Assembly (NCBI RefSeq): GCF_028009165.1
Contig: NW_026611616.1
Span: 1 to 64,000, forward strand
DNA length: 64,000 bases
Source of the DNA: Akanthomyces muscarius
Taxonomy: Eukaryota > Ascomycota > Sordariomycetes > Hypocreales > Cordycipitaceae
Direction: 5' to 3'
A model generated the notes under the pieces. It saw nothing but the letters and a program-made list of their open reading frames with translations. It ran no database searches and had not been told where the DNA came from. The position numbers and the translations under genes are program-made. Positions 2,836 to 24,738 of the stretch are shown here, piece after piece (the stretch's first letter is position 1; each line of letters opens with the position of its first letter).

Positions 2836-2868
2836 AGCAGCCTCCAGCACTGGCCCAAGGCCGCTACG

Positions 2869-5800
2869 ATGGCAAAGGACAGGTGCCCGACCTGTAAAGG
2901 CTGGTACGCTGACTTGCTCGACCATATACGCAAAAACCACCCCCAAGCCCACTATACGGACCGTCAGTTGCAAATTACAGGCCTTGTTAGCTGCCCTGAC
3001 TGTGGCACAGCCTGCCGTGGCCGCCACGGCGTGGCAACCCACAGAGCCAAGGTCCACGGCGTAAAAGGAACCTCCCAGGTCTCTACACTTCCACGGGTAC
3101 ACACACAGCCTGTACAAGTCAAAGAGCCCTCCCCCACGCCTTCAGACGACTCGACCCTCCCTATAGACCTCCTAGTACACCTAGAAGGCTCTATACAGTA
3201 CCCGGAACCCTCTCCAACCCCCTCAGAAGGCCTCTACGACAGCCTAGAAGACTCCCTGGCACCTTCTATCGAGCTAGGAGACGCTAGAAGCTGTACGCCG
3301 GCCTCCCAGGTCTCCTCGGTACCTGTGGAAGACTCTCTAGCGCCCTCTAGCGACCCTTTCGCCTCCGAAGACGACGTTCCAGCGCCTTCCCAGGCTATCC
3401 AGGTCCAAATAGGCACAAAAAGACGCCTATCAGGACCTTCAGAGGGTCCTAGACCTGCTAGAAGACCCGTCCCACCTGCAAAGGACGCCCCTAGCAGCCA
3501 GGAAGAGACAATCCGAGCCCCAGAGAGGCTAGCAGGCCTCCACAGCTCTATCAACACATCCCAGGCCGCTGCCTGGTTCGAACCACCCACCCCAGCACAA
3601 AGACCTACCCTATACACATCCTCCCCGAGCGCCCAGGAGGCCCACGCGGCTATTCTAGCACCTATACTCGCCAAAACAGCTATACAGCAGCTGCAACGCT
3701 TTATGAAGGTACCTATACCGACCTATAAGCTCCGACCTAGGCCTGCCCGGATCTTCCATCTAGCAGCGAACCGGCTTGCTGTAAAATTCGTCGCTAGGCC
3801 TTCGGAAACAACCCTCCTACACTTCCTACTACTCCCTAGGATCCTAGGGCTCGGGTTAGAGCAGGGAAACCTCCCTAGGCTCTTAAAGGACTATCCAGAC
3901 AACCTAGATACCCTAGAGGTCCCTACCTACCCTATACGAGAAGACACGTCCTTCTCTACCGCCGAAAAGAAGGCTACACACCTTCTAGAAGCCGGTTTCC
4001 TAGGAAGAGCGTCTAGGACGATAGTGGACAATTCGCCACTAGCGCCTATAGACGCCTCTACCCTAGAGACCCTCCGTCAGAAACACCCTATAGGGCCTTC
4101 TGACCCCTTCAACGCCCCAACAAGCCCGTCTCCAGGCCAGAAGATCCCTATAGAAGCGATCCTATCCACTATAAGCTCTATAAGCAGGGAAAAGGCCGCC
4201 GGACCGTCCGGCTGGACCCGGTACCTGCTAGACATCGCTATAGCGAAGGATTCAGCGGTCCTAGAGCTCCTACGGCTGCTGGCGGACATGATACGGCAAG
4301 GCACAGCACCTGGAAAGGACCTCCTAACGTCCTCACGGCTTATTGCCCTGAAGAAGAAGGACGGGGGTATAAGACCTATCGCGATAGGCGATATACTCTA
4401 TAGGGTAGCTACGAAAGCGATCCTAGCTACCCTATACCAGGACGGCATGCTCCTACCGAACCAACTAGGCGTTGGAAGCCCGGGAGGCGTGGAACCAGCG
4501 ATCTTCCTCCTTTCAGAGGCAATTACAGGGGGGAATAAGCTAAAAGCACGCTCTATCGGCTCGTTAGACGCCGAAAACGCCTTTAACGCCCTCCCTCGGA
4601 AGGCTATAGCGGCTGCTGTTAGCCTCTATGCCCCTGTATTTTACAGGTCAGCACAGTGGGCGTATAACCACGCCGCGGTACTCTTCCTAGAGGACGGAAG
4701 CACTATAGCGAGCTCTTCAGGGGTACGCCAGGGAGACCCTCTTAGCGCCTTTATCTGGTCCCTAGCGTACCGCCCTACCCTAGAGGCTGCACAGAAGGCC
4801 CTGCCAAAGGACGTCTTTATCTCGTACCTAGATGATACCTATATTATCTCTAGAGAGAAGGACCCTAGGGAAAAGGTCTTCCAGGCCTTCCACGGGTCCC
4901 CAATCAAGCTAAACCCCTACAAATCCACCTTTTATACCCTAGAAGAGGTCAGAAAAGAAGGACTTAACGCCCTAGGAACCTATATAGGCCCCCTAGAGCA
5001 AAGAAGAGCCTTCCTACAGGGTAAGATAGAGACTCTTAAGAGAGTCTTATCTACTCTAGAGAATATGCCTAAACAGTATGCTCTCCTTCTCCTACGAGGA
5101 AGTATAACCTTCCTACTTAGGCACCTTCTTAGGCAGCTAGCTCCTAGTGGCCTGGAAGACCTATACTACGAAATCGACCGCCTTACCCTACACACCGTCG
5201 AAAAGCTCGCCTCGAAAGATCCCTCAGCACCTATCCAAGCCAACCAGGACCTTCTAGCCCTCCCAACACGTATGGGAGGCCTAGGACTTACCCTGTACGC
5301 GGAGATGCCTCACACACACTATAGCCACGCCCGGAAAGCGTCCTCTATAGTGCTCGACGGCTTCCAGAGAGGCCCCCTCCTCTCTAGCGCCCCTATAGCG
5401 CTCCCAACGGACCTCCCAGCGGACCTGGCGTCCTTCCCAGCGCCTAGCTGGGGCGTGCAGGTACCCCTGGAAGCCCCGGAAGGGCCCGGACAGGTCCGAA
5501 TCCCCCCAGATAAGCCCTCTATAAAGGACATCAACCAGGGAAGGCTCCAGAGGGTCAAGGACCAGCTTACCCTACACGGACAACGGGCCCTACTGGAAAA
5601 TTCGACCTACCTTAGCCGGAAGTGGCTGGAAGTGCTGCCAACATCAAAACAAACCAAACTAGCAGACTTCCAAGTGACAGAAGGCCTTAGGGTACGTCTT
5701 ATTCTTCCTGTACGCCCACTTAACGTACCCTGTACCTACTGTGGCTCTATAGTCACGATAGGACACGAGGATACCTGTAAAGGCGCTGAAAGGCACTGGC

Positions 5801-6903
5801 AAATCCGCCATAACGCCATCGTCAGGGCCCTGTTTAACGCAACCGTTGCTACCCTGGACCCAAAGCTCGAGCCGAAGCTCCAGGGTAACCAGGACCTCCG
5901 CCCAGACCTATCCACAACCTTAAATGGCTCGGTTAGGTACTATGACGTCCAAATTGTCGCTATAAACAAGGCGTCAGCACGAGAGGACCCCCAGAAGGCC
6001 CTACAGGAGGCTGCAGACGCTAAAAGGGCTAAATACAGGTCCCTAGGACCCCAATTTTACCCGATTATTATCTCTGCCGGTGGCCTGATGGAAAAGGCTA
6101 CCACGAAGACCTATAAGGACCTACAGACCACTATAGGACCTGTGGCAGCCACCTGGCTAGACACAATGGTCTCTTTAGCGCTCTATAAAGCCCGGGTACA
6201 CTCTAGCGCCTCTATCGCTAGGAAGCAGCCGCCTCCTAGCACCTCGTGGGCCGCTATACGCGAAGGGCTCCGGGGAGGACCTGCCACACAGACCCTCATG
6301 CCCCCCCAGCACGTCCAGCGGTCCTTTCAGCGCTCTTCAGCGCCTACAACAGCCGCCCAGCGCTCTTCAGCGCCTACAACAGCCGCCCAGCGCTCTTCAG
6401 TGCCTGCAGCAGCCGCCCAGCGCCCTTCAGTGCCCGCAGCAGCCGCCCGGCGCCCTTCAGAGCCCGCAACAGCCGCCCGGCGCCCTTCAGAGCCTGCAAC
6501 AGCCGCCCGGCGCCCTTCAGAGCCTGCAACAGCCGCCCGGCGCCCTTCAGAGCCTGCAACAGCCGCCCAGCGCCCTTCAGAGCCTACAGCAGCCGCCCAG
6601 CGCCCCACGGGCGCCTCCCGGTACATGCAGCACCTGTTGGAAGGAACCCAGCGCTCTCCAGCGCCTTTAGAAGGCTCCCAGCCACCGGAATCCTCGTCCC
6701 AGCGCTTCCAGAGGGAATATAGGGCCATGACAGCCGCCCAGAAGGCCCGGAATAGAGCCGCTAAAGGCCTGCCGGACCTCCCCTCCCCGCCGCCGCCTCT
6801 CCGGCGCTCCCAGCGCTGCACAACAGCCTCCCAGCAGCCACCCCAGCGCTCCCAGCGGTCAACCAGCTCCCCAACCGCCTCCCAGCAGCTCCTAGGCAAC
6901 TAA
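2869..6903 (+). CDS. Retrotransposon polyprotein: zinc fingers, reverse transcriptase, REL-type endonuclease
   Basis: A 1,344-residue single ORF. Two C2H2 fingers lie at the N-terminus (C6, C9, H19, H24; C42, C45, H58, H63) and probably bind target DNA. A Ser/Pro-rich linker follows to about residue 230. The reverse transcriptase fills the centre, with GVRQGDPLS and the catalytic YLDD at about 653-656. After the thumb come a CCHC knuckle (C955, C958, H966, C970), an R/H-rich segment, then RPD (about 1011-1013) and YYDVQ with D1026: the spacing of the PD-(D/E)XK nuclease of CRE/R2-type elements. The tail (about 1155-1245) is a decapeptide repeat coded by a 30-bp tandem array. No stops or frameshifts interrupt it, so the copy could be active. 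The start is the first ATG before the fingers. Sequence-specific cleavage of telomere DNA and target-primed reverse transcription are inferred from family and location. Confidence 0.9.
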   Translation: MAKDRCPTCKGWYADLLDHIRKNHPQAHYTDRQLQITGLVSCPDCGTACRGRHGVATHRAKVHGVKGTSQVSTLPRVHTQPVQVKEPSPTPSDDSTLPIDLLVHLEGSIQYPEPSPTPSEGLYDSLEDSLAPSIELGDARSCTPASQVSSVPVEDSLAPSSDPFASEDDVPAPSQAIQVQIGTKRRLSGPSEGPRPARRPVPPAKDAPSSQEETIRAPERLAGLHSSINTSQAAAWFEPPTPAQRPTLYTSSPSAQEAHAAILAPILAKTAIQQLQRFMKVPIPTYKLRPRPARIFHLAANRLAVKFVARPSETTLLHFLLLPRILGLGLEQGNLPRLLKDYPDNLDTLEVPTYPIREDTSFSTAEKKATHLLEAGFLGRASRTIVDNSPLAPIDASTLETLRQKHPIGPSDPFNAPTSPSPGQKIPIEAILSTISSISREKAAGPSGWTRYLLDIAIAKDSAVLELLRLLADMIRQGTAPGKDLLTSSRLIALKKKDGGIRPIAIGDILYRVATKAILATLYQDGMLLPNQLGVGSPGGVEPAIFLLSEAITGGNKLKARSIGSLDAENAFNALPRKAIAAAVSLYAPVFYRSAQWAYNHAAVLFLEDGSTIASSSGVRQGDPLSAFIWSLAYRPTLEAAQKALPKDVFISYLDDTYIISREKDPREKVFQAFHGSPIKLNPYKSTFYTLEEVRKEGLNALGTYIGPLEQRRAFLQGKIETLKRVLSTLENMPKQYALLLLRGSITFLLRHLLRQLAPSGLEDLYYEIDRLTLHTVEKLASKDPSAPIQANQDLLALPTRMGGLGLTLYAEMPHTHYSHARKASSIVLDGFQRGPLLSSAPIALPTDLPADLASFPAPSWGVQVPLEAPEGPGQVRIPPDKPSIKDINQGRLQRVKDQLTLHGQRALLENSTYLSRKWLEVLPTSKQTKLADFQVTEGLRVRLILPVRPLNVPCTYCGSIVTIGHEDTCKGAERHWQIRHNAIVRALFNATVATLDPKLEPKLQGNQDLRPDLSTTLNGSVRYYDVQIVAINKASAREDPQKALQEAADAKRAKYRSLGPQFYPIIISAGGLMEKATTKTYKDLQTTIGPVAATWLDTMVSLALYKARVHSSASIARKQPPPSTSWAAIREGLRGGPATQTLMPPQHVQRSFQRSSAPTTAAQRSSAPTTAAQRSSVPAAAAQRPSVPAAAARRPSEPATAARRPSEPATAARRPSEPATAARRPSEPATAAQRPSEPTAAAQRPTGASRYMQHLLEGTQRSPAPLEGSQPPESSSQRFQREYRAMTAAQKARNRAAKGLPDLPSPPPPLRRSQRCTTASQQPPQRSQRSTSSPTASQQLLGN
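6330..6603 (+). repeat. 30-bp coding tandem repeat in the RT C-terminus
   Basis: About nine units resembling CGCCCTTCAGAGCCTGCAAC encode a Ser/Pro/Ala/Arg-rich decapeptide at the protein C-terminus. Period 30 keeps the frame in every unit, so copy number can vary without breaking the ORF. Confidence 0.9.
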
Positions 6904-7299
6904 GAGCCACTATAACGCCCCTCCACCCACTATAACACCCATACCAACACCCTCTACCAGCTAGAACACACATTCCAGCACCTTCTAGCAGCTAGAACAC
7001 ACACTCTAGCGCCCTCTATTAGCTAGAACACACACTCTAGCGCCTCAAGCAGCTAGAACACACACTCTAGCGCCTCTATCAGCTAGAACACACATCTTAG
7101 CACCTTCCACAGCTAGAACACATATTCTAGCACCCTCCCTCCACCTACCCTACACTACCTCCTACCCTATACTACCTACCCTATACTCTCTTTCTTAGGA
7201 CACTCTCCTTTTTACTTTCTTTCTTTACTATTACTTTCTCTAAATGTATTATTAGAAAATTCCCGAGCGAGCTAGCTTAGATAACTCAATTTACAGTGT
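6904..7299 (+). other. 3' UTR of the telomeric retrotransposon with six 30-31-bp repeats
   Basis: Six units starting AGCTAGAACACAC begin at 6959, 6990, 7021, 7051, 7081 and 7111. A pyrimidine-rich stretch and a unique 3' end (GAGCTAGCTTAGATAACTC) follow before the telomere junction. The 3' end is the part likely bound by the reverse transcriptase to start cDNA synthesis. The duplicate copy preserves it exactly. Confidence 0.75.
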
Positions 7300-7319
7300 C
7301 TAACCCTAACCCTAAGTAA
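7300..7319. repeat. Interstitial telomere repeat at the junction of two retrotransposon copies
   Basis: Sixteen bases of CTAACC repeat (7300-7315) plus GTAA filler separate the 3' end of the outer copy from the 5'-truncated start of the inner copy. This is the signature of insertion into, or capping by, telomere repeats between successive integrations. Confidence 0.9.
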
Positions 7320-7921
7320 CCCAGCGCTTCCAGAGGGAATATAGGGCCATGACAGCCGCCCAGAAGGCCCGGAATAGAGCCGCTAAAGGCCTGCCGGACC
7401 TCCCCTCCCCGCCGCCGCCTCTCCGGCGCTCCCAGCGCTGCACAACAGCCTCCCAGCAGCCACCCCAGCGCTCCCAGCGGTCAACCAGCTCCCCAACCGC
7501 CTCCCAGCAGCTCCTAGGCAACTAAGAGCCACTATAACGCCCCTCCACCCACTATAACACCCATACCAACACCCTCTACCAGCTAGAACACACATTCCAG
7601 CACCTTCTAGCAGCTAGAACACACACTCTAGCGCCCTCTATTAGCTAGAACACACACTCTAGCGCCTCAAGCAGCTAGAACACACACTCTAGCGCCTCTA
7701 TCAGCTAGAACACACATCTTAGCACCTTCCACAGCTAGAACACATATTCTAGCACCCTCCCTCCACCTACCCTACACTACCTCCTACCCTATACTACCTA
7801 CCCTATACTCTCTTTCTTAGGACACTCTCCTTTTTACTTTCTTTCTTTACTATTACTTTCTCTAAATGTATTATTAGAAAATTCCCGAGCGAGCTAGCTT
7901 AGATAACTCAATTTACAGTGT
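7320..7921 (+). mobile_element. 5'-truncated second copy of the telomeric retrotransposon
   Basis: A 602-bp segment matching 6698-7299 at a constant offset of 622, with no indel seen. It holds the last 67 or so codons of the polyprotein (stop at 7523-7525), the six UTR repeats and the 3' end. 5' truncation is typical of incomplete target-primed reverse transcription. It has no start codon or catalytic domain and is a dead copy. The near-identity points to a recent origin. Confidence 0.93.
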
Positions 7922-11395: not shown

Positions 11396-14332
11396 CTATG
11401 GCCGGCCTTGTCTCTGCTGTTTCCGAACCTTCTGATCGATCTTTGTGAATAAAACACACATCTGGTTGCTCTCCATTCCCTGCCGCCCCTCTACCCTTCT
11501 CCCCATCCATTGATAAAATGCCGCCGTGCCTGCCTCTGCGCCGACCTTGCCGGCAACCCACCGCTCATATATGAAAATCGTCGCGCCTAACACGCGAATT
11601 AACAACCCGCCGTGCTGGCACACGCCGTCCTCCAACCTCTGCCACCGACCTTTATCGCCCTCTACCGCCCGCCATTGTTCGCATATTTTCTGCGGCAACC
11701 CACATTCCCAACACCCACTGAACCGTTCCATCCGCTGCTTGGTCCATACCTCCTTCTCTAATGCCGCCCTCGCCTCCGTCACCTGCCGCTTTAATGTGCC
11801 TGCCTGCATCCTCACACAATCGGCTTCGTCGTGGTCGTCCGCCCGACCTATCAACCGGCACACCGCGCATCGTCCTGCCGCCCAATCCTCTAAATGGATC
11901 TCAAACTCGCTCCACGTCTGCGCCTCCTCCATCTGCCTTGTCAACGCTGCGCACTCGGCCACCCGTGCCGCGGCCGCCTGCCGCTCTATTGTCGGCCTTG
12001 CTTCGCTGTATGCCCACTCCGCCGCCTGCACTGTATCCTCCTTGTCTGCGGTCGCCGCCGCCTCCCCGCACACGTCGCACACCTCTTCGCCTTCGCCGCA
12101 TTCCTCCCGGTCCACCTGGCCGTCCATCGTCCTGTCCAACGTGATCCGCCGACACTGTCTCTTGCTCGTGTACTCCACCGTCGCCGCCTCCCGTGCCCAC
12201 GGGCCCTCCTCCGCTGCCCCGTCTGTGATCGGCCCACACACCACTACCGACCGGCTCCGTCGTCCATCCCGCCCGGCCCGCCCGCTCTCCTGCACTAAAT
12301 CCCGGATCCGTCGCGGCATCCATGCGTGCACCACCAACCGTACGTCCGGCACGTCGATTCCCATCCCCAACGCATTTGTCGCCACAATCACCCGCTCGTC
12401 CGCCTTCCACGCCTCCATCATTCGACTTTTCCCGTCTCGCGTGTCGGCGCTGCTGTAATATGCGCTGCATCCTAACGTCGCCGCTAACGTTCGCACACGC
12501 TCTACCGTCCCTGCGTATATAATCGCCCGCCCTCCGCTGTCTTCCGCCTGCCATGTCTCTATAACCTGCTGAACCCGCTTGTTCTCGGCTTCCTCCTGCC
12601 TGGCCTGGGCTGAACCCGTCTTGTTGCCCGTCGTCTTACCTGTCGTCTTGTCTGCTTGTGTCTCCACGTCCCCACCCTTCACCACGTCCACCCTGTACGT
12701 AATGTTTCGACGTGTCGTCGGCGATCGGAATACGCGACAACTTTGCATCTCCACCGCCGCCACTTCGGCAAACGCCGCTATCTCCGCCGGCCCCAACGTC
12801 GCTGTCAAAAACACCCGCTGTATACCCCAATCCCGAATCACCTGCCCGACCTTCCTCATCTTCGGTCGAAACGTCGCACTCGCGTCTAATAACGTATGGC
12901 ACTCGTCCACCACCACGCGGTCTAATACCCCTTGCTTCTGTAACCGGTACACGTAATCGCCAAATCCCTTCGTGCATGCTGACTCTGGCGTCACGAACAC
13001 CACGCTGCTGTGCGCTATGCCACGTCCGCTCTGCCACACGCTTGATGTGATGCCCGCCGCCTGGCAACGCGTATGTAAATCCTCCTGCAATGCCACCAAC
13101 GGTACAATCACAATTGTCGTGCTGTCTGGTGAACAATACGCCGGCAACATGAATGATACGCTTTTGCCCTCCCCGGTACTCGCAATCTGTAACACCGCCA
13201 TATCGCCCTGCACGATCGACTGCACCACCGGCTCCTGCTGGCCGCGGAACCTCGCACCGGCCCCGACCATTTGCTGCAATGCGCCGGCCGTGTTGATATG
13301 CTGTATCCGCTCGAACCGTCGCCGCTTGGCCTCGCTTCTTTCGTTATCGTATCGTTCCCTCTTCCGCTTCGCCCCCGGCTGCACCGTATGCCCGCCCCGA
13401 AATCCGAACAACCGGTGCCACCGCTCGCTGACCGAACGGAACCTCTCTCGCATCGCCGCCGTCCCGTTCGTGTTCTCGAACATATCACGGGCGTATATCA
13501 TACCCGCCACGTGTGACCCGTGCCCGGCCTGTAAATCCACCGGGTCGTCGTCGATCCCGTCTTTATCCTCGTATCCCTCCGAACTCTCCGCACTGGCGCC
13601 CAAAAACCGCCGCGCGATCGCGATCGCCATGTGCCGCCATCCCGCGATCGACACCTGGCTTCCCACATACCGCTCGCTGTACCCCTGCATCACTCGCCGT
13701 ACCCTGTCTGTCGTCCATTTGCGCTCGCGGATCCAATCTTGCCAATCTGTCGGCAATGATGATGCGCACGATATCATCGACCGGCCCGACTCGCTCTCGT
13801 ACCCGTCGTTCTCTCTGTCGCTCCCGCTGTGGTACCCTTCGTCCTCCCCGGGCTCGCCCTCCAACACCTGCGCCGCCCACAAAAATGCACTTACACGCCC
13901 CGCGCCCTTGACGATGCCTTGAATCCTTTGCCAAAACGGCAACACCAACCATAAATACCACACTAATAACTCCCCCACTTCACGGGGCAAAAAACGATGG
14001 ATGATCTTCGCCTCGTTGGTCTGGCGGAAATTCTTGTGGTATGCCGTTACGAACCCGACCTGCTCGTGGCTGATGAATATGTTGCGTGCCCCGCCGTTGC
14101 GCGTGTTGCGGAACCGGATCTCTAACGACTCGCTGGCCCGCGCCGGCTGGCCCGACGTCATATGCATTAAACACCACATCACTTCCCGGAATCGTTCGAC
14201 ACACCGCTGGTACCGCCGCACGGCCTGCTCTCGTAACGGGGTTCGCAAACTGCTCTTGGCCGTGATCCACGCGCGCCGATGCTTCTCCTGCTCCACGACA
14301 CGATGTATCACATACCCTTCGCCGGTCCGCGC
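11396..14332 (-). CDS. Telomere-linked RecQ helicase, C-terminal part: recombinase-like and helicase domains
   Basis: This is the larger piece of a gene read from 15484; an in-frame TAG at 14333-14335 precedes it. Counting from the GTG at 14311: residues 40-280 look like a tyrosine-recombinase core, with R58 (GQPAR), K93 (YHK), R226 (WRHMAIAI), H264 (AGHGSH) and Y273. A RecQ helicase follows: Walker A TGEGKS (about 379-384), DECH (469-472), TAT (about 503-505), QESGRAGRDG (674-683) and a RecQ zinc site (C720, C738, C745, C748). The end (810-900) holds a cysteine/histidine module with GCWECGLP that also ends the neighbouring 15.6-20.1 kb gene. RecQ genes next to telomeres (TLH type) are known in many fungi and are linked to telomere maintenance; the role here is inferred. 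Without an in-frame ATG at its head it depends on the upstream piece. Confidence 0.85.
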   Translation of the reverse strand, partial: ARTGEGYVIHRVVEQEKHRRAWITAKSSLRTPLREQAVRRYQRCVERFREVMWCLMHMTSGQPARASESLEIRFRNTRNGGARNIFISHEQVGFVTAYHKNFRQTNEAKIIHRFLPREVGELLVWYLWLVLPFWQRIQGIVKGAGRVSAFLWAAQVLEGEPGEDEGYHSGSDRENDGYESESGRSMISCASSLPTDWQDWIRERKWTTDRVRRVMQGYSERYVGSQVSIAGWRHMAIAIARRFLGASAESSEGYEDKDGIDDDPVDLQAGHGSHVAGMIYARDMFENTNGTAAMRERFRSVSERWHRLFGFRGGHTVQPGAKRKRERYDNERSEAKRRRFERIQHINTAGALQQMVGAGARFRGQQEPVVQSIVQGDMAVLQIASTGEGKSVSFMLPAYCSPDSTTIVIVPLVALQEDLHTRCQAAGITSSVWQSGRGIAHSSVVFVTPESACTKGFGDYVYRLQKQGVLDRVVVDECHTLLDASATFRPKMRKVGQVIRDWGIQRVFLTATLGPAEIAAFAEVAAVEMQSCRVFRSPTTRRNITYRVDVVKGGDVETQADKTTGKTTGNKTGSAQARQEEAENKRVQQVIETWQAEDSGGRAIIYAGTVERVRTLAATLGCSAYYSSADTRDGKSRMMEAWKADERVIVATNALGMGIDVPDVRLVVHAWMPRRIRDLVQESGRAGRDGRRSRSVVVCGPITDGAAEEGPWAREAATVEYTSKRQCRRITLDRTMDGQVDREECGEGEEVCDVCGEAAATADKEDTVQAAEWAYSEARPTIERQAAAARVAECAALTRQMEEAQTWSEFEIHLEDWAAGRCAVCRLIGRADDHDEADCVRMQAGTLKRQVTEARAALEKEVWTKQRMERFSGCWECGLPQKICEQWRAVEGDKGRWQRLEDGVCQHGGLLIRVLGATIFIYERWVAGKVGAEAGTAAFYQWMGRRVEGRQGMESNQMCVLFTKIDQKVRKQQRQGRP

Positions 14333-15484
14333 CTACTCGTTATGCTCGTCGGCCAAAAACCAATACCCATCTCGCTGCTCGCTATTGTTGTCCTTAATGC
14401 TGCCCCACGGGATCGCCGGCAACTGTCTGATCTCGCCCTGATCCACTAACGTCAACTCCTCCAACATGGTGCGCGCCTTATCGACCATCCCGTGGAACAT
14501 GCTCGCTAACTGGGCCATGCCTACTTTCGTCTGCTGGAAACGCAACGTCTCACCCTGCCAATCGACGGTCCCCGCCGCTGTCGTGTTAAACCGGATATGC
14601 ATTCCGTACGTTCGCGTCTCCAACATCCATTCCATCGGCACCGGGTACTGGTCGCTTTCCTCGCCGATCCGCGCCATAAATCGGCGCACCATCTTGCGCA
14701 CGCGCGGGAACACGCCCGCCACCCTCTGCTTGGCTTCTTGCTCTGTTAATACCACCGCGCCGTTCCCCCCGGACAACTGGCGCCGCTGGTCTGCGGCAAT
14801 CACTCGGCGAATGTCCTCTTTCCGCGCCTGATGCGCGCTGTACACTGCCATCATCCGCGCCACCTTGATGATGGCTGACATTTTGGGCGTGTAATTCATC
14901 GGGCTGCACCAACCACCGTCCTCCCCCTCGATACCTATCACGGCCATGGCGCTTATAATGGCACTGCTGTACTCGTCGTCTTTAATGTCGTGGTCTAACA
15001 AATGCATCACGGCTGCTAACCCCTGCTGGTCGAACTCGGCGTCGTCGACCACGGCCGCCTCGGTCGCCGGGGTGCTGGCTCTGCTCGCGTGACTGGCCGT
15101 ACTCGCCTTGTCGGGCGTCAACTGCCTATATATCGCATCCTGTCTCGCCTGGGCCTGGCGTCGGACCTGGCTGATGGCCGCCTGGCTGCGTGCCTGGGCG
15201 CTGCTCTCCCACGCATCCCATGCGTCGCCCTGCTCCTCTGTCATCACGTACGGCGGCCGCTTCTCGTCCTCCACCTGCTCGGCGCGGTATATAATGCGAA
15301 TTATATGTGTCCACGTCTCTTTATACCGTGTCCATGAATCGCTTTCCATCCGCGCGTCAAACGGCCGGCTGGCTCTTTTACTGGCTTCCCTCCGGTTGAT
15401 CTCGAACATGGTCGCTAACCCGACGTGGCGGCGATGGCATACCCGCTTGGCTGCTTCTATCACTCTTTCGATACTGAGGTGCAT
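14333..15484 (-). CDS. Telomere-linked RecQ helicase gene, N-terminal part ending at an in-frame TAG
   Basis: 383 residues from ATG at 15484, ending at TAG 14333-14335. The downstream helicase piece is in the same frame only eight codons further, so both are one gene. The region resembles the N-terminal domain that precedes the recombinase-like core in fungal TLH proteins: helical segments followed by PMEW and RFNTTAAGTVDWQGE. The two adjacent OrsD-like genes have matching segments (PLGEFFSLLAYG, PSSFDELFSLMNYG). The stop interrupts a stretch that aligns without a gap to the family pattern as I know it, so a nonsense mutation is more likely than an intron. It may be a pseudogene, an assembly error, or read-through. 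Confidence 0.75.
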   Translation of the reverse strand: MHLSIERVIEAAKRVCHRRHVGLATMFEINRREASKRASRPFDARMESDSWTRYKETWTHIIRIIYRAEQVEDEKRPPYVMTEEQGDAWDAWESSAQARSQAAISQVRRQAQARQDAIYRQLTPDKASTASHASRASTPATEAAVVDDAEFDQQGLAAVMHLLDHDIKDDEYSSAIISAMAVIGIEGEDGGWCSPMNYTPKMSAIIKVARMMAVYSAHQARKEDIRRVIAADQRRQLSGGNGAVVLTEQEAKQRVAGVFPRVRKMVRRFMARIGEESDQYPVPMEWMLETRTYGMHIRFNTTAAGTVDWQGETLRFQQTKVGMAQLASMFHGMVDKARTMLEELTLVDQGEIRQLPAIPWGSIKDNNSEQRDGYWFLADEHNE

Positions 15485-15599
15485 CGCGTCAACTGCCGCT
15501 TAATGTACATCCCGTCGCAGTATTAGTGTTATAGTAGTAGTGGGCTGTTAATTGCTGTTTTTTAACCGCTAATCAGCTATCTAGCCCACCATCCATCTA
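15485..15599. promoter_or_regulatory. Short intergenic region upstream of the TLH gene
   Basis: Only 115 bp separate the TLH start from the stop of the next gene on the same strand, so the TLH promoter must lie here or inside that gene. A TAGTAGTAG run and a T-run are present. Co-transcription of the two genes is possible. Confidence 0.4.
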
Positions 15600-18500
15600 T
15601 CAGCCCTGGCGCCGAATGGCCCTATAGAGTATCGCGTTGTCTTCATCCTTCTCATTGAACCACTCCATGAGTAAACTCATACCTATGCATAAGTTATTCG
15701 TCTCCATCCCACCCCAGTCTTCCCTCTGCTTTTCCCCGATCCGCAGCACGTCTTGTATATGGTATGGTGTCTTGGGCGCTTTCCCTGCTAACCATGAGAA
15801 AATATTCTCCACGGCTTCCTTTGCACCAGACATCGCAGTTCCTAAAACTTGCGCTAGTAGGTTGGGGTATTGGCACGATGTGGCCGTGGTCCGCCGTATA
15901 GCCACCCTACTATCTTCTCCGATATCAACCCAGCGGCTACATACCTGGAATGGTAGCCCGCATTCTTGGCATCCGGAGTATCGGCCACGTCGCGCTGCCT
16001 CACTCAGCCATGTCTGCACTGCTTTAATATCTTTGTTGATTATCCTCTCTGCACTGGTGCGGTCTGTCGCCCGGGGACAGACTGATGGATCCTCGTCGTC
16101 GGCGTAGTGGTGAGGCTCATTGTGGACCAGGCAGAATATACAGCTATACTCCCAATGTCGTAACTGCTCCTTGAATATATGTCGCACCCATGCGTCTTCT
16201 CTAACCCTCTCAGTCTTTTGCCAATAGAGGAACTCTTCCTTCCGTTTCTCTAGGAAAAGAGCCGACGTTGTTGCCTCCTGCGTTGTATAGTCTGTGCTCG
16301 GATGCTGTCGAGTGGTCAACGTGCTCTTGCCTAACTTGTTGTCCTCGTCGCTAGTGATCGACCGCTCTGAGCCACCCCATCGTAGGCTAGTGTCGCTCCA
16401 AGGTGGGTTGAGGGGGGCATTCTGGCTTGTTAATGCCCCCTGTGCTGTATTGTCCGCGCTTGGAGGTTGTTGAGTGGTCAACGTGGGCTCTACTGTCTGT
16501 TGCCCCTTGGCGCTGGTGGTCGACCGCTCTGAACCACCCCAACGTAGACTGTCGTCGCTCCTATGCACATAGATGGGGGTATCTTGTCTACGGCTGCCAT
16601 CTGCTGCTGTCTCTGGCAGTTGTGGTGTATGCATCTGGTTGCGGTCGCTTTGTTGGGTGTTATCTGCACCGCTACGACAGGCACGAACGCTATTCGTGGG
16701 GAACGTCAGGGGTATAGCCCTTCTGCGTCTCTGAAACAGCTGGGCGGCTACCCTAGCCGACGCCACTGTTGCCGTCCTGTGAGACTCTTCCAGCTGTGGC
16801 TGAATTTCGGTCTGAGCGGCGACTGCTACTGGTAGCACCCCCCTGCAAAGACGCTTACTAGCCGGGCCGTTGTGGAGGACTATGTCATCGTCAATTGCGG
16901 CGGCGGCGTCGTCGTCGTCACTGCCACTGCTGTTGTGATTGATCGCGGTGTGGCTGTGCCTCTCTCGTTTTAGCGACGCCTGTGGATGACTTTCTGTAGT
17001 GCCACGGCGAGAGCCAGCCTTACTAGGGATACGGAGAAACTCATGCCATCGTGTGGACGCCCATTGATATAGGTTTAGCAACTGTGGCTGTAATGTGGTC
17101 GGGAATGCGCCGTCCAGCCCGTAGGTGGACCCTCGTTGTCTTGGTCGGTGGCCCGCTTGCCAGGCGAAGATGATGTTCCGGTCAGCCGCTGCGCTCTTGT
17201 CATCGTACTGGTTGAAAGGCTCGTACACCTCCCGGACGTGTTTCTCCGTGACGCCGATAGAGAGCTGACGATAGATGCGCGAATTGACTACTTGGCCCCA
17301 TTTCTCAACCGTAACGGTCTTGAGCGTTTTGTTGAATCGTGCGGATGGCCACGGCTTGCTGTCTGGCATAGGGTGCGACCGAAAGAGCAAAGGTGAGCTC
17401 GACAGGAGGGGCATGTGGTGTACCTCGCGGTAGAGAAGGTCTATAAAGGGCCGTATGTATACTAGATACTTGAAGAGGGCGATGCTTAGTTCGGCCCCGA
17501 GGAAGCGGGCGACGATGAACTCGTGGTTGGTCGACCGTTTAGCCTTGTGGTGCCGCGAGATGTACATAAGCTGGGACCCGTACACGAAGAGACCCCGTGG
17601 GCCATACTCAGTATTTTGACACCACAAGCTTAATAGCTCTGTCCATCGCGCGGCCTGGCCACCCTGGGTTTGCATGGCCACGCCGGCGGACGTGCGGAAT
17701 GCCTCTTCCTTCTTGAGGTATGCTTTAACCGCTTGCCGATCCCAGCGACCGCGCTTTGACAGGCCTGTCCGCCGAGTAGTGCACGCATGCTCTGCCAGCT
17801 GCAGATATGCTGATGTCAGCTTGTTCGCCGGCTCGGTAACAAACGAGTATCCGCTTGCTGTATTTGCTATGATATCCTTGATGCCTGCAAGGTCAACGGC
17901 CGGTCCTAGCCCTAGCATCAGCTCGTCACAGAGTCTGCCTGACTCCTCAAGATAATACTGGGCAACGAGGCGGAACTGTGCCATGGGCAGCCACGCAGAG
18001 TCGTTCCAGCGCACCGAGCCGCCGTCATCACTCCAGAAGAGAAGGACAGGAGGCGCGTCTGTTCGGGCTATCACGCGGCCGTAGTTCATCAGGCTGAATA
18101 GCTCGTCAAACGATGATGGGGCTCCCATGACCATGAAGCGCTGTCGGACGCTATTGAGCAGCTGGAGGGATTCGGTATGTGGTCTTTTGCTGATTGCTAA
18201 TGCTTTATACGGCCGTATTGGGAGTATGCTCTCTAGGAATAATAGTCGTTGGTTGTAGAGCTGGGCGGCGAGGTAGGGTGTATATGATCGCGCGGATAGG
18301 AAGCTTTGGCGCGCGTCCGAGAACCCCAAGATGCCGCTGAAGAAGACGATTGTCAGCGATGCTGGGTTGTCGTGTAGTGGCTTTTCCTTGCAGAGCGCAA
18401 GGCTAATTCCAAACAATAGCTCGAGCAGTCTTTCCTGGTCTGGGCCTTGTTTGTTGTCCGCAGTTGGACGGTAAGTAGTCCATCCTCCTTGAGCCGCCGT

Positions 18501-20105
18501 AATAGCTGACTTCTTCAGTGCCTCGTTCTCATAGTCTGCCGTCATCGAATTGTCCGTCTCGTAACGAGAGTCATCGTCCGTGGTGTCAATAATATCTTCC
18601 TCCTCCTCCTCCTCCCCTTCCCCGCTCTCACCACCTTCTTCCACTTCCACTTCTTCGTCTCCTTCTCCTTCTTCTTCTTCTTCTTCTTCTTCTTCTTCTT
18701 CTTCTTCTTCTTCTTCTTCTTCTTCTTCTTCTTCTTCTTCTTCTTCTTCTTCTTCTTCTTCTTCTTCTTCTTCTTCTTCTTCTTCTTCTTCTTCTTCTTC
18801 TTCTTCTTTATCCTCGTTATTATCGCTATGCTCTCCGCAACCGTGCTGTACATGATCGTAGACATGACGAGTTATATGGGCGCCGGAAGGATGCTGTACC
18901 CCTGTTTCACGCTCTGCCCAGTAAGTGTCCTGCCAGAGCGCATCAATCAGTTGCGTTGTAGCTTTGTCGAGTCGGAGGCCGGTTAGCTGTCGCCGTAGAG
19001 GCGCAACCATTCGGTAAAGTCGGAGGACGAACGCCAACAGCTTCCGCTGGAGCACCCTGTACCGCTGGGTCGTTGTGGCTAGCCTGACTAGGCTGAAGGG
19101 CTTGGGGGCGGCGGTGTCCGGTTTTACGCTCTTGAGCCAGCGGCGGATATTATGGCTGGTTCTTCGTGCTGTCTCGTCGCACCGTTCCATCATAGGATCG
19201 ACCAGGGCCACGATGGAGGCAATTCTAGCCTCGTCGTCCGCTGTGGTTACTAGGCCGCCCTCCCAGTCGGGCGTGCCTTGGCCGACGACGAGTGGGAGAG
19301 CGCGAAAACGCTGGTTGGCCTGCTGCTCGGGCAGGGATATGAGCTGCAGGAGGGCGGCCCGGTCGCGGCCATGGAACATGGCCTCCCAGCACGTTCTCTC
19401 CATCCACGGGCTCTCTTCGCCAAAGGTCATCCTCCGGCCACTAGCTTGTGCTGGTGTGCCGTTAGACTGGGCGGCGTCCTGGAGGGATTCAATCCGTGCC
19501 ATGACCTTGGCCTCGTGTTGCCTGACGGATAGGAGATGCTCTGCCGAGACTGCAGAGTGAAATGGGCGCACTGTGCTGCCGTTGTGGCTGATCAGCCAGT
19601 ACTGCGACCTGGGGCCACGACACCACGTCTGAAGGTAAACGTATTCGATGAGCTTGTCGATCTCCGCGAGACGAGGCCGTCCGCATGCCGCCGCAGGACA
19701 GACGGGCTTGGTGCTTGGGTTATCGCTGTCGGGGTCGGTGTCGCGGTCGCGGTTGAGGCGAGAGTAGTGGCGCTTCAGGATACCGAGGTTGATGTTCCGC
19801 TCGCCGCAGGAAGTGCAGTAGTAGCCGTCGACTACCTGCAGGTGTGGGTGCTGTGGCGATCCGTCGGGTCGGGGCTGCACATTGGCTGGGTCGGGGCTGT
19901 AGAGTTGGAGCTGGCGCAGAATGCTCGTTAGGTGCCTTCGTTGCCGTAGCGGGACCTGGTGCTTGTCCCGGAGGTGCGTCGAGGGACGAGAACCCTCCAC
20001 CGGTAAGGCCGTCTTGCAGGTATCGCGACAGCAGAGGAGGACGTTGGCGTCATAGTCCACGGTGAGAGCGAGATCGCTTAGGTATCGTAGCTGGGGATTG
20101 CTCAT
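15600..20105 (-). CDS. OrsD-like zinc-finger protein with recombinase-like core and poly-Glu tract
   Basis: About 1,501 residues from ATG at 20105; the longer frame to 20150 begins at GTG. The N-terminus has the OrsD (DUF3505) layout: a first finger with final HLRDKH, the link SPQHPHLQV, a second CTSC finger, then an LQTW...SQYW stretch. From about residue 430, a CTT microsatellite adds a run of roughly 50 glutamates. Then comes the helical region shared with the TLH N-terminus and a recombinase-like core: R near 817 (GGQAARWTEL), K near 852 (HHKAK), R near 945 (IYRQLS), H near 984 (AGHRP), Y near 994 (STYGLDGAFP). The C-terminus has CIFC...GCQECGLP, homologous to the TLH end, but no helicase. 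Function unknown; a nuclear DNA-binding role is inferred. Confidence 0.85.
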   Translation of the reverse strand: MSNPQLRYLSDLALTVDYDANVLLCCRDTCKTALPVEGSRPSTHLRDKHQVPLRQRRHLTSILRQLQLYSPDPANVQPRPDGSPQHPHLQVVDGYYCTSCGERNINLGILKRHYSRLNRDRDTDPDSDNPSTKPVCPAAACGRPRLAEIDKLIEYVYLQTWCRGPRSQYWLISHNGSTVRPFHSAVSAEHLLSVRQHEAKVMARIESLQDAAQSNGTPAQASGRRMTFGEESPWMERTCWEAMFHGRDRAALLQLISLPEQQANQRFRALPLVVGQGTPDWEGGLVTTADDEARIASIVALVDPMMERCDETARRTSHNIRRWLKSVKPDTAAPKPFSLVRLATTTQRYRVLQRKLLAFVLRLYRMVAPLRRQLTGLRLDKATTQLIDALWQDTYWAERETGVQHPSGAHITRHVYDHVQHGCGEHSDNNEDKEEEEEEEEEEEEEEEEEEEEEEEEEEEEEEEEEEEEEEEEEEEEEEGEGDEEVEVEEGGESGEGEEEEEEDIIDTTDDDSRYETDNSMTADYENEALKKSAITAAQGGWTTYRPTADNKQGPDQERLLELLFGISLALCKEKPLHDNPASLTIVFFSGILGFSDARQSFLSARSYTPYLAAQLYNQRLLFLESILPIRPYKALAISKRPHTESLQLLNSVRQRFMVMGAPSSFDELFSLMNYGRVIARTDAPPVLLFWSDDGGSVRWNDSAWLPMAQFRLVAQYYLEESGRLCDELMLGLGPAVDLAGIKDIIANTASGYSFVTEPANKLTSAYLQLAEHACTTRRTGLSKRGRWDRQAVKAYLKKEEAFRTSAGVAMQTQGGQAARWTELLSLWCQNTEYGPRGLFVYGSQLMYISRHHKAKRSTNHEFIVARFLGAELSIALFKYLVYIRPFIDLLYREVHHMPLLSSSPLLFRSHPMPDSKPWPSARFNKTLKTVTVEKWGQVVNSRIYRQLSIGVTEKHVREVYEPFNQYDDKSAAADRNIIFAWQAGHRPRQRGSTYGLDGAFPTTLQPQLLNLYQWASTRWHEFLRIPSKAGSRRGTTESHPQASLKRERHSHTAINHNSSGSDDDDAAAAIDDDIVLHNGPASKRLCRGVLPVAVAAQTEIQPQLEESHRTATVASARVAAQLFQRRRRAIPLTFPTNSVRACRSGADNTQQSDRNQMHTPQLPETAADGSRRQDTPIYVHRSDDSLRWGGSERSTTSAKGQQTVEPTLTTQQPPSADNTAQGALTSQNAPLNPPWSDTSLRWGGSERSITSDEDNKLGKSTLTTRQHPSTDYTTQEATTSALFLEKRKEEFLYWQKTERVREDAWVRHIFKEQLRHWEYSCIFCLVHNEPHHYADDEDPSVCPRATDRTSAERIINKDIKAVQTWLSEAARRGRYSGCQECGLPFQVCSRWVDIGEDSRVAIRRTTATSCQYPNLLAQVLGTAMSGAKEAVENIFSWLAGKAPKTPYHIQDVLRIGEKQREDWGGMETNNLCIGMSLLMEWFNEKDEDNAILYRAIRRQG
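18666..18808. repeat. CTT/GAA microsatellite encoding poly-glutamate
   Basis: An almost pure CTT tract of about 47 units lies in frame in the minus-strand gene. The reverse frames give poly-Ser and poly-Lys shadows, which are not genes. Length variation by whole triplets would only lengthen or shorten the acidic run. Confidence 0.97.
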
Positions 20106-20150
20106 GATTTCTCTATTTGGCGTCAACGAACTACTGCGGTCGGCCACCAC

Positions 20151-20605
20151 CGCTTTTGTTGGATCTACTGTAATAAGTTGTTAATGGATGGCCAAGTGAA
20201 TTGGATCCGATCGAAACCGTGGTATTATGGCTCTACTACTGTACTACTAGGTCTACTGTGACGATTGATGGGATGCCCCTTTCTCGTTGGGCTGTGCACG
20301 GACTTAAAGTATGTAATTTCATGAAAACACGAAAATGCGCCTAAAAGGGAAATCACTAGTGGCCGCGGGATGAACCTTGCGTTCTAGTCAGGGTTCGTCA
20401 AGGCTAGTGCGGGTGCGCACGGGTAAAATTGTTGTTTTTCAGCATTTACGCAGTACTCTGCCCACAGTAGTAGTGATAGGTTACCTGTGGACAGTTGTGT
20501 TCCGCCTTTACTGGTCTGATCCATGTATGGCGATAGGTTCGCGGTGTAGATAGCTTGCGGGCTGACCGGCAATGTCGAATCCTCCATATTCTCCGCAGAA
20601 CGCTT
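20151..20605. other. Intergenic region between the two OrsD-like genes
   Basis: About 500 bp, counting from the chosen start at 20105, separate the start of one gene from the stop of the other. No repeats or domains are seen; the promoter of the poly-Glu gene should lie here. Confidence 0.5.
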
Positions 20606-23600
20606 CTAGGGGACGGCCAGTCGCATGGCGATATCCGGAGCTACGGGATCCGCTACACGGAGGAACGCGTGCCATTGCCGTGAAACATCATGATACATGC
20701 GAAGAAGCCCAGGTTGAAGCTTGTCAGGGAATGCGCCATCCAGGCCGTACGTCGAGTGCCTTTGCATTGGCCGATGGCCGCTCTGCCACGCGAACGCAAT
20801 GTTGTCATCCCATCTAGAAGCCGTCTCGTCATAGCGGTTAAAAGTAGTGGCACCGATAACGTGTTTCTCTACAATGGCTACAGACAGCTGCCGGTAGAGC
20901 TGGGCGCCTATACCCGGTGGTACTGCAGGTAAGTCCAGAGCGAGCTGCTTGAGGTGCTTTGAGAATGTGGATGTCTTCCATGTGTAACCTGTAGCCGCTG
21001 GTGAAAATAGAAGTGCTTCCTCTTTGTCTGCATGGAGGCAAACACGGCGTAGCATAGACACCGTTGGCTGGATATAGACAAGGTACTGGTATAGAAGCTC
21101 ACCCAGCCGAGTAGGCAGGAATCTCGCTACTTGAAACTCGCTATTGGTACTGAGCCGACTTTTCACATGACGAGTGATACAGCAGGCTGACCCTCGGTGG
21201 AAAACCACACCTCGAAGCTGAGAAGATGTGTTGACGCGAAGAAGCGTCAAGAGTTCAGAAATGCGGCTGCCCTGGCCACCATATCCATGGACGGCTATCA
21301 TTAAATCTTTTAAAAGCGCATCATGCTTCTCAATGTAGCTTATGACTGCGCGCAGATCCCATCGCCTTGTGCCGTCCCCAATACGGTCTTTTCGTAATAA
21401 CCCATCTATTGGCGCGATGCAAGCTCTTTTCACAAGCTGTATGTACGCGCTCGACAACCCGTTGGCGGGGTCTGTCACGAAGGAGTAGCCGGCAGACCTT
21501 TCTGAGATTCGGTCTCGGAGTTCCCGGACCCGCGGTGGAGGAGGTTGCCAGCTGTATAGCAAGTGCTCACTCTGCTTGGCAACCCGTTCGGTCGCTGCAG
21601 CCAGGAGGTTACGAAACCCGTCCATGGTCAAATGGTGCTTCCCATCCCAGGAGATCTCCTCCCCGTCCTCGCTCCACTCAAAGAGAAACGCAGGGCCATC
21701 TGCACGGCTCAGACTTATGCCGTACGCCAAGAGGCTGAAAAACTCACCAAGAGGCGCGAGGGTGCCGTCACACATCTTCTCACGTCGCACACGGCAGAGG
21801 AGGTCGAGCTGGCCACGTCTCGGCCGCGCCGGCAGGCCAATATACTCATGGGCCACACGAGGCAGGGTACCTTCTAGAATGATGAGGCGTGCGCAATAGA
21901 TGAAGCCTGAGAGGTGCGTTGTATAGGTCGCCGGGCGTGCAAATTCAGCCCCGTTGTCGCCAGAAAGGCCACACACAGCGCTAAAGTAGACGAGCAGCGT
22001 GGAGCTTGCTTGGCCATCGTCGAACTCTTCCATGGCCATGAAAAGACAGAATCGCAGCACAACATCTAGCTGTCGATCTTGCGCAGGCTTCGTAGTAGCC
22101 TCCTCCTCCTGGCCACTCTCCGCGTCAGGATCGCTCACTGGGCTTGCGCGGCCTGACTCCATGTAGGATGAGGGCGGCGTATTCGCCTCCTCCTCATCGT
22201 CGCCGTCATCTGCACTGTCGTCTTGGAAGTCAGAGTCTTCCCTACTGCTGCCATCGCTATCGGAGTCGTGCTCAGACTCGGAGCTGGAACCGCTGAGCAA
22301 TCCATAGTTCATGTCATTGTGCTCTCCCACCCCGGCGGCTGGAGAGAAATTCATTGTATCGTTGACACATGGGTCGGAGGCAGTCCCCGGATCCATTCGG
22401 GTCCCATGGAGGCCGCGTGTGCGGCGGACGCCACCGGTGAACTCGACAGTCCCTGACCACACCGGATCTTCCCATAGCTTCTGTAAAGCCTGGCCCTGCT
22501 CAAAGGTAATGCTCCGTCTCGTTACCGCCTTGGCGGAGGCACGGGGCATGCGCCATAGTCGCAGCCACATGCAGAGACAACGCTTCAGAAGACGCCGATA
22601 CTGGCGCTCGGAGCGCTCATGCACGACGAGCTGAAACGGCGCCTTGTATGGTCGGTCGATAAACCTACCACGCAGCCATCGTCGTATGGCCGTGTCGGTA
22701 TGAGCCACTGTATCTGCGCATCGATCAAATAGTCTATCGAGCGCGTGCATGATAGTTTGGAGTCTTGCTTCATCTTGTGCCGGACTTTCCAGTTGGACAC
22801 AGCCGTACGCACCAAGATAGTACGGTCCGTCTGCCGCCGGCGTTTGATACAGTGCAATGAGAAGGCGCCGGTCCGCCTGCGCGAAGAGCGTCTCCCACTG
22901 CGTTCGGCGCATCCAGTTGCTCACGAGGAGAAGGGAAGGCTGTTCCCGCACCGTTCGAGGAGTAGATTGCGTAGACGACGGTAGAGGCGAAGATAGCGAT
23001 GTGCTGGTGAGACGATGCAGCTCAGCGTCGCAGATCGCCTCGGCCTGCCTATCCAACTCGGCGTCCTTAACAGCCAGGGCCGCCAGGTCGGTTGTGCCAG
23101 CAGTCGGGTCGGCAGACACACGCCAAGCGGCAAGGATGTCACCAGGGAGCCAGCTCTGGAAGTGGATGCCCTCCTGGAGGTGCTCTCGCAGCCACGGTTT
23201 GGACGAACGTCTCGCTGTGATCTCGCGAGGATGCTGCTTCTTCAGGTGTCGGGAGAGGAGGTCTAGGCTTGTGGAGCGAAAGCGGCAATGAGAGCATGAA
23301 GCCGCTTTCTGCACGGCCAGGTGCGGATGCTGCGGACAGCCATCTTCCCTGGGTGGCAGCTGGCGAGGGTCAGGGAGCTGCAGCGCGTTGATGAGCTTGT
23401 TCAAGCCGTGTCTTGCCTTTCTCGGGATACCATGCTTCTCCCCAAGGTGCCGAGACACACGGTCTTTGTCCGCCTTTAAGGCGAAGCCACATTCGATGCA
23501 TATAATCGCTAATTCTGGCTGATTGAAGTAGAGGCCGAGTGCAGCCATACGTTGCACGTCCTCGGGTCGCAGCGACCCGCATACCTGGGGCGCCGCCGTT

Positions 23601-23620
23601 GGGACATCAGGTCCCCCCAT
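20606..23620 (-). CDS. OrsD-like zinc-finger protein with tyrosine-recombinase-like C-terminus
   Basis: 1,004 residues from a true ATG, no interruption. Two C2H2-like fingers (C41, C44, H58, H63; C109, C112, H125, H130), joined through GCPQHPHLAV, give the OrsD (DUF3505) signature. An acidic, Ser-rich linker lies around 430-510. The second half matches the neighbouring 15.6-20.1 kb gene closely and the TLH protein more distantly. Recombinase-like residues are about R786 (GQGSRISEL), K820 (HVKS), R910 (LYRQLS), H949 (SGHRP) and Y958 (STYGLDGAFP). The usual H before the second R is replaced, so catalysis is uncertain. It lacks the C-terminal cysteine module of its neighbours. The name comes from the A. 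nidulans orsellinic-acid cluster; no such cluster is seen here. Confidence 0.85.
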   Translation of the reverse strand: MGGPDVPTAAPQVCGSLRPEDVQRMAALGLYFNQPELAIICIECGFALKADKDRVSRHLGEKHGIPRKARHGLNKLINALQLPDPRQLPPREDGCPQHPHLAVQKAASCSHCRFRSTSLDLLSRHLKKQHPREITARRSSKPWLREHLQEGIHFQSWLPGDILAAWRVSADPTAGTTDLAALAVKDAELDRQAEAICDAELHRLTSTSLSSPLPSSTQSTPRTVREQPSLLLVSNWMRRTQWETLFAQADRRLLIALYQTPAADGPYYLGAYGCVQLESPAQDEARLQTIMHALDRLFDRCADTVAHTDTAIRRWLRGRFIDRPYKAPFQLVVHERSERQYRRLLKRCLCMWLRLWRMPRASAKAVTRRSITFEQGQALQKLWEDPVWSGTVEFTGGVRRTRGLHGTRMDPGTASDPCVNDTMNFSPAAGVGEHNDMNYGLLSGSSSESEHDSDSDGSSREDSDFQDDSADDGDDEEEANTPPSSYMESGRASPVSDPDAESGQEEEATTKPAQDRQLDVVLRFCLFMAMEEFDDGQASSTLLVYFSAVCGLSGDNGAEFARPATYTTHLSGFIYCARLIILEGTLPRVAHEYIGLPARPRRGQLDLLCRVRREKMCDGTLAPLGEFFSLLAYGISLSRADGPAFLFEWSEDGEEISWDGKHHLTMDGFRNLLAAATERVAKQSEHLLYSWQPPPPRVRELRDRISERSAGYSFVTDPANGLSSAYIQLVKRACIAPIDGLLRKDRIGDGTRRWDLRAVISYIEKHDALLKDLMIAVHGYGGQGSRISELLTLLRVNTSSQLRGVVFHRGSACCITRHVKSRLSTNSEFQVARFLPTRLGELLYQYLVYIQPTVSMLRRVCLHADKEEALLFSPAATGYTWKTSTFSKHLKQLALDLPAVPPGIGAQLYRQLSVAIVEKHVIGATTFNRYDETASRWDDNIAFAWQSGHRPMQRHSTYGLDGAFPDKLQPGLLRMYHDVSRQWHAFLRVADPVAPDIAMRLAVP

Positions 23621-24738
23621 AGCGCTAGAGGGGGCCCGCTAACTTTCCTCCCTTGAACCCCGAGCGAGTAGCAGACCGAGCCTACTTGCAGGACGGAGCG
23701 GGAAGAAGCGAGCCACATGTAGAAGAAGCTTACAGACAGTAAAACAAGGGAATTTGCAAAGGAGAAGCAGTGGCCGCGTAGCATATACTATAAAGCACCT
23801 CTACGGCAATCTTAATTTCACACGCGTTTGAGTACACTCGTACGCGTGCAGGCCGACCTGGGCGCTCCGCGGCCTGCGCATCACTGTATGGTGTCGTCTG
23901 ATTGGCTGCCTACGGTTTTGGGAACGGGCCCCGTTTCGAGTGCTTTGGGACGCGTCTCGCGCACCAGGGTGGCCATTTGGGGGAAACGGGGCCCGTTCCC
24001 GAACTGATCTGGGCAGGGGTCGACGCACGTAGTTGATTGGGCGAAAAGCGGGAACGGGCCCCGTTCCGGTAGACAATACTTGAGTAGTCCATGGTTGACT
24101 TGCTTTACATCGCTCGCTGCACGCTGCGAAGGATATCCCGCCTCTACCCGGGGCCACAGTGGAAGTCAGGCCAAGTTCACACGCAAGTGCCAGAAGACTA
24201 GCAGCCTCTCCCACCTGTGTTGAGGAAGACCGCGTCTGAATCTAGTACGGTCGGCCAAATAAGGCGCAAGTGAGGACACCGAAGCAATAGCAGGCGGCGA
24301 CATTGTCGACATCACGTCCCCGTCAAACTAAACAAGAACCAGGTTACCAGGGCCGTTTGGCCAATTTTCCTTGCTCACCGCCTAGATAGCGGCGAATTTT
24401 AAATGGTCAGCTATGGGTATGCCTTGACGAAAGAGCAGATCCAGGATGCCGAGGAGGAAATCTCGCGGGAGGAATCCACATACAGATTCGCTAGACAAGT
24501 GGACAGGCCATCCATCGGGCGTCAGTTAACCAACTAAACAAAAGCCCGACCAATATCGGCCTCTCGTCGACGTAAGGGTTCGTTGGTTCCAACATCAGCT
24601 TAGTCGACTGGTCTGGGCGAGGTCACGGCGGCAGCGTCGGCCGCGTCGGCCGCGTCGGTAGTCGCGACGCCTCATGAACTTGTCACGCGGGAGTAGCGGT
24701 ACATGGAAGTAGTATTAGCAAATCGTATGTTCTTCGCT
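23621..24738. other. Intergenic region upstream of the OrsD-like gene
   Basis: Apart from the three palindromes and a GTCGGCCGC direct repeat near 24638-24659, no gene is seen. It separates the helicase/OrsD block from the LTR-split gene. Confidence 0.55.
23920..24069. promoter_or_regulatory. Three GGGAACGGGCCCCGTTCC palindromes upstream of the OrsD-like gene
   Basis: Near-palindromes lie at 23920-23937, 23981-24001 and 24049-24069, spaced about 60-68 bp, 300-450 bp upstream of the ATG at 23620. They could be sites for a dimeric regulator (the half-site GGAACGGG is symmetric) or the ends of small repeats. No binding factor can be named. Confidence 0.55.

Follow-up and report, generated by a model that had tools for sequence, protein, structure and literature searches.

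A predicted tyrosine recombinase fold ahead of the RecQ-type helicase in a telomere-linked gene of Akanthomyces muscarius

The region preceding the helicase in a telomere-linked RecQ-type helicase (TLH) gene of the fungus Akanthomyces muscarius very probably has the fold of a tyrosine recombinase (YR), as judged from structure models, and conservation in aligned sequences suggests that the family probably includes an active recombinase. The gene is located in a window of 64,000 nucleotides, the stretch analysed here, which is the start of contig C9 (NW_026611616.1 of assembly GCF_028009165.1; C9:1-64000 of 119,961 bp) in a genome of 36.2 Mb and 12 contigs. The contig begins with telomere repeats and copies of the gene were found close to contig ends, which places it in a gene family adjoining telomeres. 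We consider it likely that fungal TLHs of this family are two-enzyme proteins, composed of a YR and a RecQ helicase, and propose that they act at chromosome ends. The original prediction of a recombinase-like region ahead of a RecQ helicase is borne out by the predicted fold, the conserved residues and the RecQ-type helicase that follows them; the interpretation attached to that prediction is supported in part.

The recombinase motifs are found in an open reading frame (ORF) of 971 amino acids (ORF2; 14311..11396, minus strand) as GQPAR58, YHK93 followed by IIHRFLP, WR226H, AGH264 and Y273. These five positions had been given correctly at the outset, and each proved to be conserved in at least 108 of the 110 rows aligned (Table 1), as was E61 of an RxxE motif (109/110). 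The relatives were collected with ORF2 residues 1-345, which gave 433 matches; a precomputed helicase domain is present in 106 of the best 120 of these. The alignment comprises the 108 of 121 matches that passed the coverage filter (13 dropped), together with the window copy and a second cut of the neighbour protein. The distance from H to Y is 9 residues in the window TLH, in the two adjoining OrsD-YR genes (genes 2 and 3) and in a gene at C7:35.9-40.5 kb, the same as in LGHxxxxTTxxY. The YR motif pattern originally described holds in the R-K-R-H-Y order and the H-Y spacing and departs at the His of HxxR, which is absent from TLH and replaced by S in 98 of the 110 rows and by A in the window copy. 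Known tyrosine recombinases also vary at this His.

Two AlphaFold models were made from separate alignments of families that are 20-23% identical. With VIA-align, the top 23 rows for the TLH model and the top 27 rows for the second family's model consisted entirely of relatives of Xer, Cre, Int and topoisomerase IB. The likeness to Xer, Cre, the integron integrase and lambda Int extends over the predicted catalytic fold, the residue order and the H-to-Y spacing. TLH differs from Xer, Cre and lambda Int in the S or A at the first His of HxxR, in its fusion to RecQ and in about 75 additional residues within the YR domain, an insertion that we infer from the model and the aligned range. Several results weigh against a recombinase fold. 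Foldseek alone gave nothing significant for the models. No YR family was among the Pfam families listed for the window ORFs and relatives (best 25 of 36 in the members' scan), the comparison of TLH and XerD profiles gave no significant sequence match, and in that of OrsD-YR with XerD none of 40 shuffles scored as high, by a narrow margin.

Table 1. Features of the TLH locus (positions in the window; model residues refer to the AlphaFold model)
Feature	Position	Strand	Evidence
Telomere repeat (CTAACC), contig start	1..103	.	Tandem repeat, 17 copies
TLH gene, one frame of 1362 codons including 1 internal TAG; no OrsD found N-terminally	11396..15484	-	ORFs, domain scan
RecQ-type helicase (ORF2 residues 359-750)	12062..13237	-	Pfam, TIGR00614, RECQ1-type chains
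Predicted YR catalytic domain (model residues 176-588)	13331..14569	-	AlphaFold pLDDT 79, pTM 0.70; VIA-align rows 1-23 all YR/topoisomerase IB
Presumed nucleophile Tyr (Y273)	13493..13495	-	Kept in 110/110 rows; within model helix 530-540
Catalytic-type His (H264)	13520..13522	-	Kept in 110/110 rows; final aligned residue, opposite the known His/Trp at Cre 315, XerH 335, lambda Int 333, topoisomerase I 632
Catalytic-type Arg II (R226)	13634..13636	-	Kept in 108/110 rows; within model helix 483-498
Beta-hairpin Lys (K93)	14033..14035	-	Kept in 109/110 rows; directly past model strand 345-352
Catalytic-type Arg I (R58)	14138..14140	-	Kept in 109/110 rows
In-frame TAG between both ORFs	14333..14335	-	Column Trp 82, Phe 19, Leu 6 among 110 rows
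Predicted helical N-terminal domain where a core-binding domain would lie (model 18-170)	14585..15043	-	Model; within some Cre and XerH alignment ranges; weak
OrsD-YR gene 2, 1516 amino acids, no helicase found, same YR core	15600..20150	-	OrsD E 2e-7; blastp to TLH; 141 relatives
OrsD-YR gene 3, 1004 amino acids, with GSRISELL, HVK, YRQL and SGHRPMQRHSTY	20606..23620	-	OrsD E 8e-9

The helicase was recognised by Pfam as DEAD (359-510) and Helicase_C (584-683) and by the RecQ subfamily model TIGR00614 (E 1.4e-39, yet under that model's cut-off), and it also resembles RECQ1-type chains (E about 1e-24). The C-terminal CxxCGLP stretch of TLH resembles that of OrsD-YR gene 2. Among proteins of at least 1300 amino acids, a C..C.[LFM]P stretch was observed in 27/70, 9/27 and 42/51 members of three families; as it occurs in part of each family's proteins, it was rejected as a general family trait. 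An OrsD domain is common in TLH relatives such as P0003 and was not found in the window copy by a Pfam scan.

The TAG is the sole stop within the TLH frame, the rest of the 1362 codons being open. We read it as a stop inside a conserved stretch because relatives show no insertion there, which rules out an intron spanning it. A programmed stop common to the copies was also rejected: the stops of a C10 copy fall on mixed columns, and a C7 paralogue, likewise with a single internal TAG, has it where most rows show Arg or Gln, which makes decay the simpler explanation. A TAG on a mostly Trp column, as in the window gene, is of the kind changed by adenosine-to-inosine (A-to-I) editing in some Sordariomycetes. 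Such mRNA editing of UAG is known from sexual stages of Fusarium and Neurospora (PMC4817773, accessible part), and it is possible that it restores the window copy. Since no OrsD was found and the frame holds an internal stop, this copy is perhaps dead, and may be so unless the UAG is edited; it is improbable that it yields a full-length protein itself.

The TLH gene was found as an identical sequence of 4089 bp, TAG included, near the ends of C7, C8 and C9. Further YR-RecQ copies were located no more than about 54 kb from a C10 end, on C5 and C6 at 21-24 kb, and, along with fragments, up to 104 kb on C7. Internal matches on C1, C4 and C6 span the helicase only, and DNA like gene 3 is also present on internal C3 at 73-77%. 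Copy numbers are lower bounds because our searches of the genome scored only the best candidates (30 of 51; 15 of 28). A strong signature of repeat-induced point mutation (RIP) was observed in two C10 copies and one C6 copy (GC 0.26-0.28) and a weaker one in the C5 copy (GC 0.41). Seven other copies were compared: the full set of five residues is retained by the three that are free of RIP marks and by none of the four that carry them. The window gene was compared with a C10 copy located at 1,346 kb, itself interrupted by stops, and the ratio of nonsynonymous to synonymous change (dN/dS) was 0.33 for the YR core and 0.27 for the helicase; these values are rough (dS >1.2) and the C-terminal part is saturated. 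For gene 3 and its C7 copy, which has 6 stops, dN/dS was 0.52. Both enzymes thus seem to have been constrained, a rough sign of purifying selection on the YR and RecQ parts.

A chance resemblance, in which a helical domain conserves R/K/R/H/Y for some other reason such as a subtilase-like GHGTHVAG motif, is very improbable. Peptidase_S8 does match around H264 in 11 of the 31 members (best E 0.016) and in the window ORF (0.0029, under the cut-off), and the lack of a significant Foldseek match would agree with it. The match to the Asp-His-Ser triad domain is, however, a single short one (positions 32-75 of 288), and subtilase identity was rejected as a lookalike motif in one short stretch, where OrsD-YR reads GHRPxQRxxTYG with H and Y kept. 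The two separately derived models, which both place the YR/topoisomerase IB superfamily in their top rows, also speak against chance. It is also unlikely that the protein keeps a YR fold without being an enzyme, binding DNA as Ndc10 does and anchoring RecQ at chromosome ends. The kinetochore protein Ndc10 is itself Crypton-derived. Binding alone would not need five catalytic positions that are nearly invariant in three families, and this favours an enzyme over a DNA anchor.

The window copy and many other TLH copies might instead be decaying repeats that are spread by recombination between chromosome ends, with the protein idle here. This is compatible with the other explanations and we regard it as evenly poised. 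The in-frame TAG, the missing OrsD match and the RIP in the C10, C6 and C5 copies favour it, as does the 100% identity of the gene and adjoining DNA, 12.7 kb in all, near three contig ends. The otherwise open window frame, which is without RIP marks (0.61, 1.08), and the low dN/dS of the two enzymes relative to the C10 copy are against it. The identical block covers window 11396-24060, C7:11384-24048 and C8:851569-864233, and reflects either very recent exchange or an assembly effect.

If TLHs are two-enzyme proteins, their parts would be arranged as an OrsD zinc-finger region (in many members), the YR, the RecQ helicase and a C-terminal zinc knuckle (in some members). The OrsD fingers would find DNA, the YR would cut and rejoin it via a 3'-phosphotyrosine on Y273, and RecQ would open the DNA or branch-migrate the junction. 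Such proteins could act at chromosome ends by spreading or repairing the subtelomeric blocks in which their genes reside, and TLH with the adjoining OrsD-YR genes could form a selfish or half-domesticated mobile system. That TLH spreads or rearranges chromosome ends is plausible, at somewhat less than an even chance. It is a more tentative and rather doubtful suggestion that TLH and OrsD-YR together make up an undescribed class of mobile element of chromosome ends, each being one arm of it, in which YR-RecQ integrates, resolves or amplifies subtelomeric DNA. If this were true, element spread, with RIP as the host's answer, would explain the helicases at fungal telomeres. If many TLHs carry a YR, a single substitution (Tyr to Phe) and a single assay (covalent DNA complex) would suffice to test what they do. 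Helicase-linked YR-type proteins would then gain a eukaryotic branch, and the rapid exchange of subtelomeres in fungi a possible mechanism.

The TLH gene (15484-11396) is the last of a consecutive trio on the minus strand, after OrsD-YR gene 3 (23620-20606) and OrsD-YR gene 2 (20150-15600). The gene 2 family was aligned from the best 120 of its 141 matches, 8 being dropped on coverage, and its conservation was R 113/113, K 113/113, R 112/112, H 113/113 and Y 108/108. No precomputed helicase domain is present in 119 of these 120, one of which is nevertheless named a telomere-associated RecQ helicase. The single relative with a helicase domain is a 2032-amino-acid prediction in which two YR cores occur with part of a helicase, apparently through the merging of two adjacent genes. 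Among the best 120, the closest named relative of gene 2 is from Aphanocladium album (88%). In gene 2, 58 CTT units at 18635-18808 encode a long poly-Glu run.

A third, divergent YR-RecQ family is represented by the gene at C7:35.9-40.5 kb, which has OrsD in one ORF and YR and RecQ in the next and shares no more than 25% identity with any other row in the tree sample. It has 124 relatives, and some of the best 120 are named tlh1 or tlh2-like. In the alignment of these 120 (19 dropped on coverage), the 102 rows conserve R 102/102, E 102/102, K 102/102, R 101/102, H 99/102 and Y 102/102. TLH and OrsD-YR fall on opposite sides of a branch in a tree of 37 rows (SH-aLRT 99), and the branch of the C7 lineage is too long to place. 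A scan of prokaryotic genome contigs with P0003 found no relative. Relatives labelled Massilia and Planctomycetes in public data (P0046, P0279) are probably contamination.

The gene resembles the fungal TLHs of Ustilago (UTASa) and Fusarium (tlh) as a multi-copy RecQ-type helicase gene beside telomeres with RIP-damaged copies; S. pombe tlh1/2 and Magnaporthe TLH1 are linked to it only through their names. The following is taken from the accessible parts of the papers cited. No YR domain is named for TLHs in any of these parts. Fusarium TLHs are located at chromosome ends (PMC12857005), and the word recombinase is absent from that source. Since 1998, when a U. maydis paper appeared (cited in PMC10532341), TLH genes have been reported at the chromosome ends of fungi as helicases of uncertain role. 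In U. maydis, all 12 chromosomal recQ-related genes are close to telomeres (PMC7593156). Removal of a truncated RecQ gene and its neighbour in that species increased Congo Red sensitivity and UV resistance and left virulence unchanged (PMC7593156). UTASb, which has OrsD and/or a 'core' sequence, occurs close to telomeres or on the 5' side of UTASa, the RecQ gene, and is possibly derived from a homing endonuclease gene (PMC10532341); by this description it is similar to genes 2 and 3, as a helicase-free OrsD gene 5' of a RecQ gene. No open-access paper was found with both 'telomere-linked helicase' and 'tyrosine recombinase', the core TLH papers being outside that coverage, and priority for the TLH-YR link is not established.

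Neither DUF3435 nor NDC10_II, which mark Starship captains, Cryptons and Ndc10, was among the families listed for the window ORFs and the relatives scanned, and DUF3435 was absent from the window ORFs and 6 further proteins scanned for a Starship captain. Both families occur elsewhere in the genome. Two DUF3435 genes of the Starship-captain type on C3 (411319-412610 and 549669-550960) are oppositely oriented, separated by about 137 kb and equal in score; they are perhaps two copies. A decayed NDC10_II gene of the Crypton type, with 29 stops, is located at C5:3940713-3941507, about 30 kb from a contig end. We know of no RecQ fusion in Cryptons, Ndc10 or Starship captains. Academ elements, which have a DDE-type transposase and not a YR, are similar by description as RecQ-encoding transposable elements. 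In the accessible part of PMC3627910, these DNA transposons encode a RecQ helicase, and this was the only paper found in which RecQ, Crypton, tyrosine recombinase and helicase appear together. No boundary of a mobile element was found around the TLH block. In the one comparison made, the C1 end gave no empty site: both flanks are common and other DNA lies between them.

Several other repeats were observed in the window. The segments 24068-28302 and 28710-31005 are each repeated at 98-99% at no fewer than 12 places of the genome, mostly near contig ends, and hold ORFs of 891 and 497 amino acids with no Pfam match. A subtelomeric repeat at 2542-7311 shares 94-96% with 13 places among the matches listed, most of them near contig ends, and an identical series of tandem repeats occurs twice (6804-7187 and 7426-7809), about 622 bp apart. 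Furthermore, two large overlapping ORFs at 31145-40908, with DUF3638 and DUF3645 and with DUF6606, are perhaps one gene. A non-LTR retrotransposon (56453-61617) encodes endonuclease, reverse transcriptase and RNase H in one ORF, upstream of which a 580-amino-acid ORF is located on the same strand.

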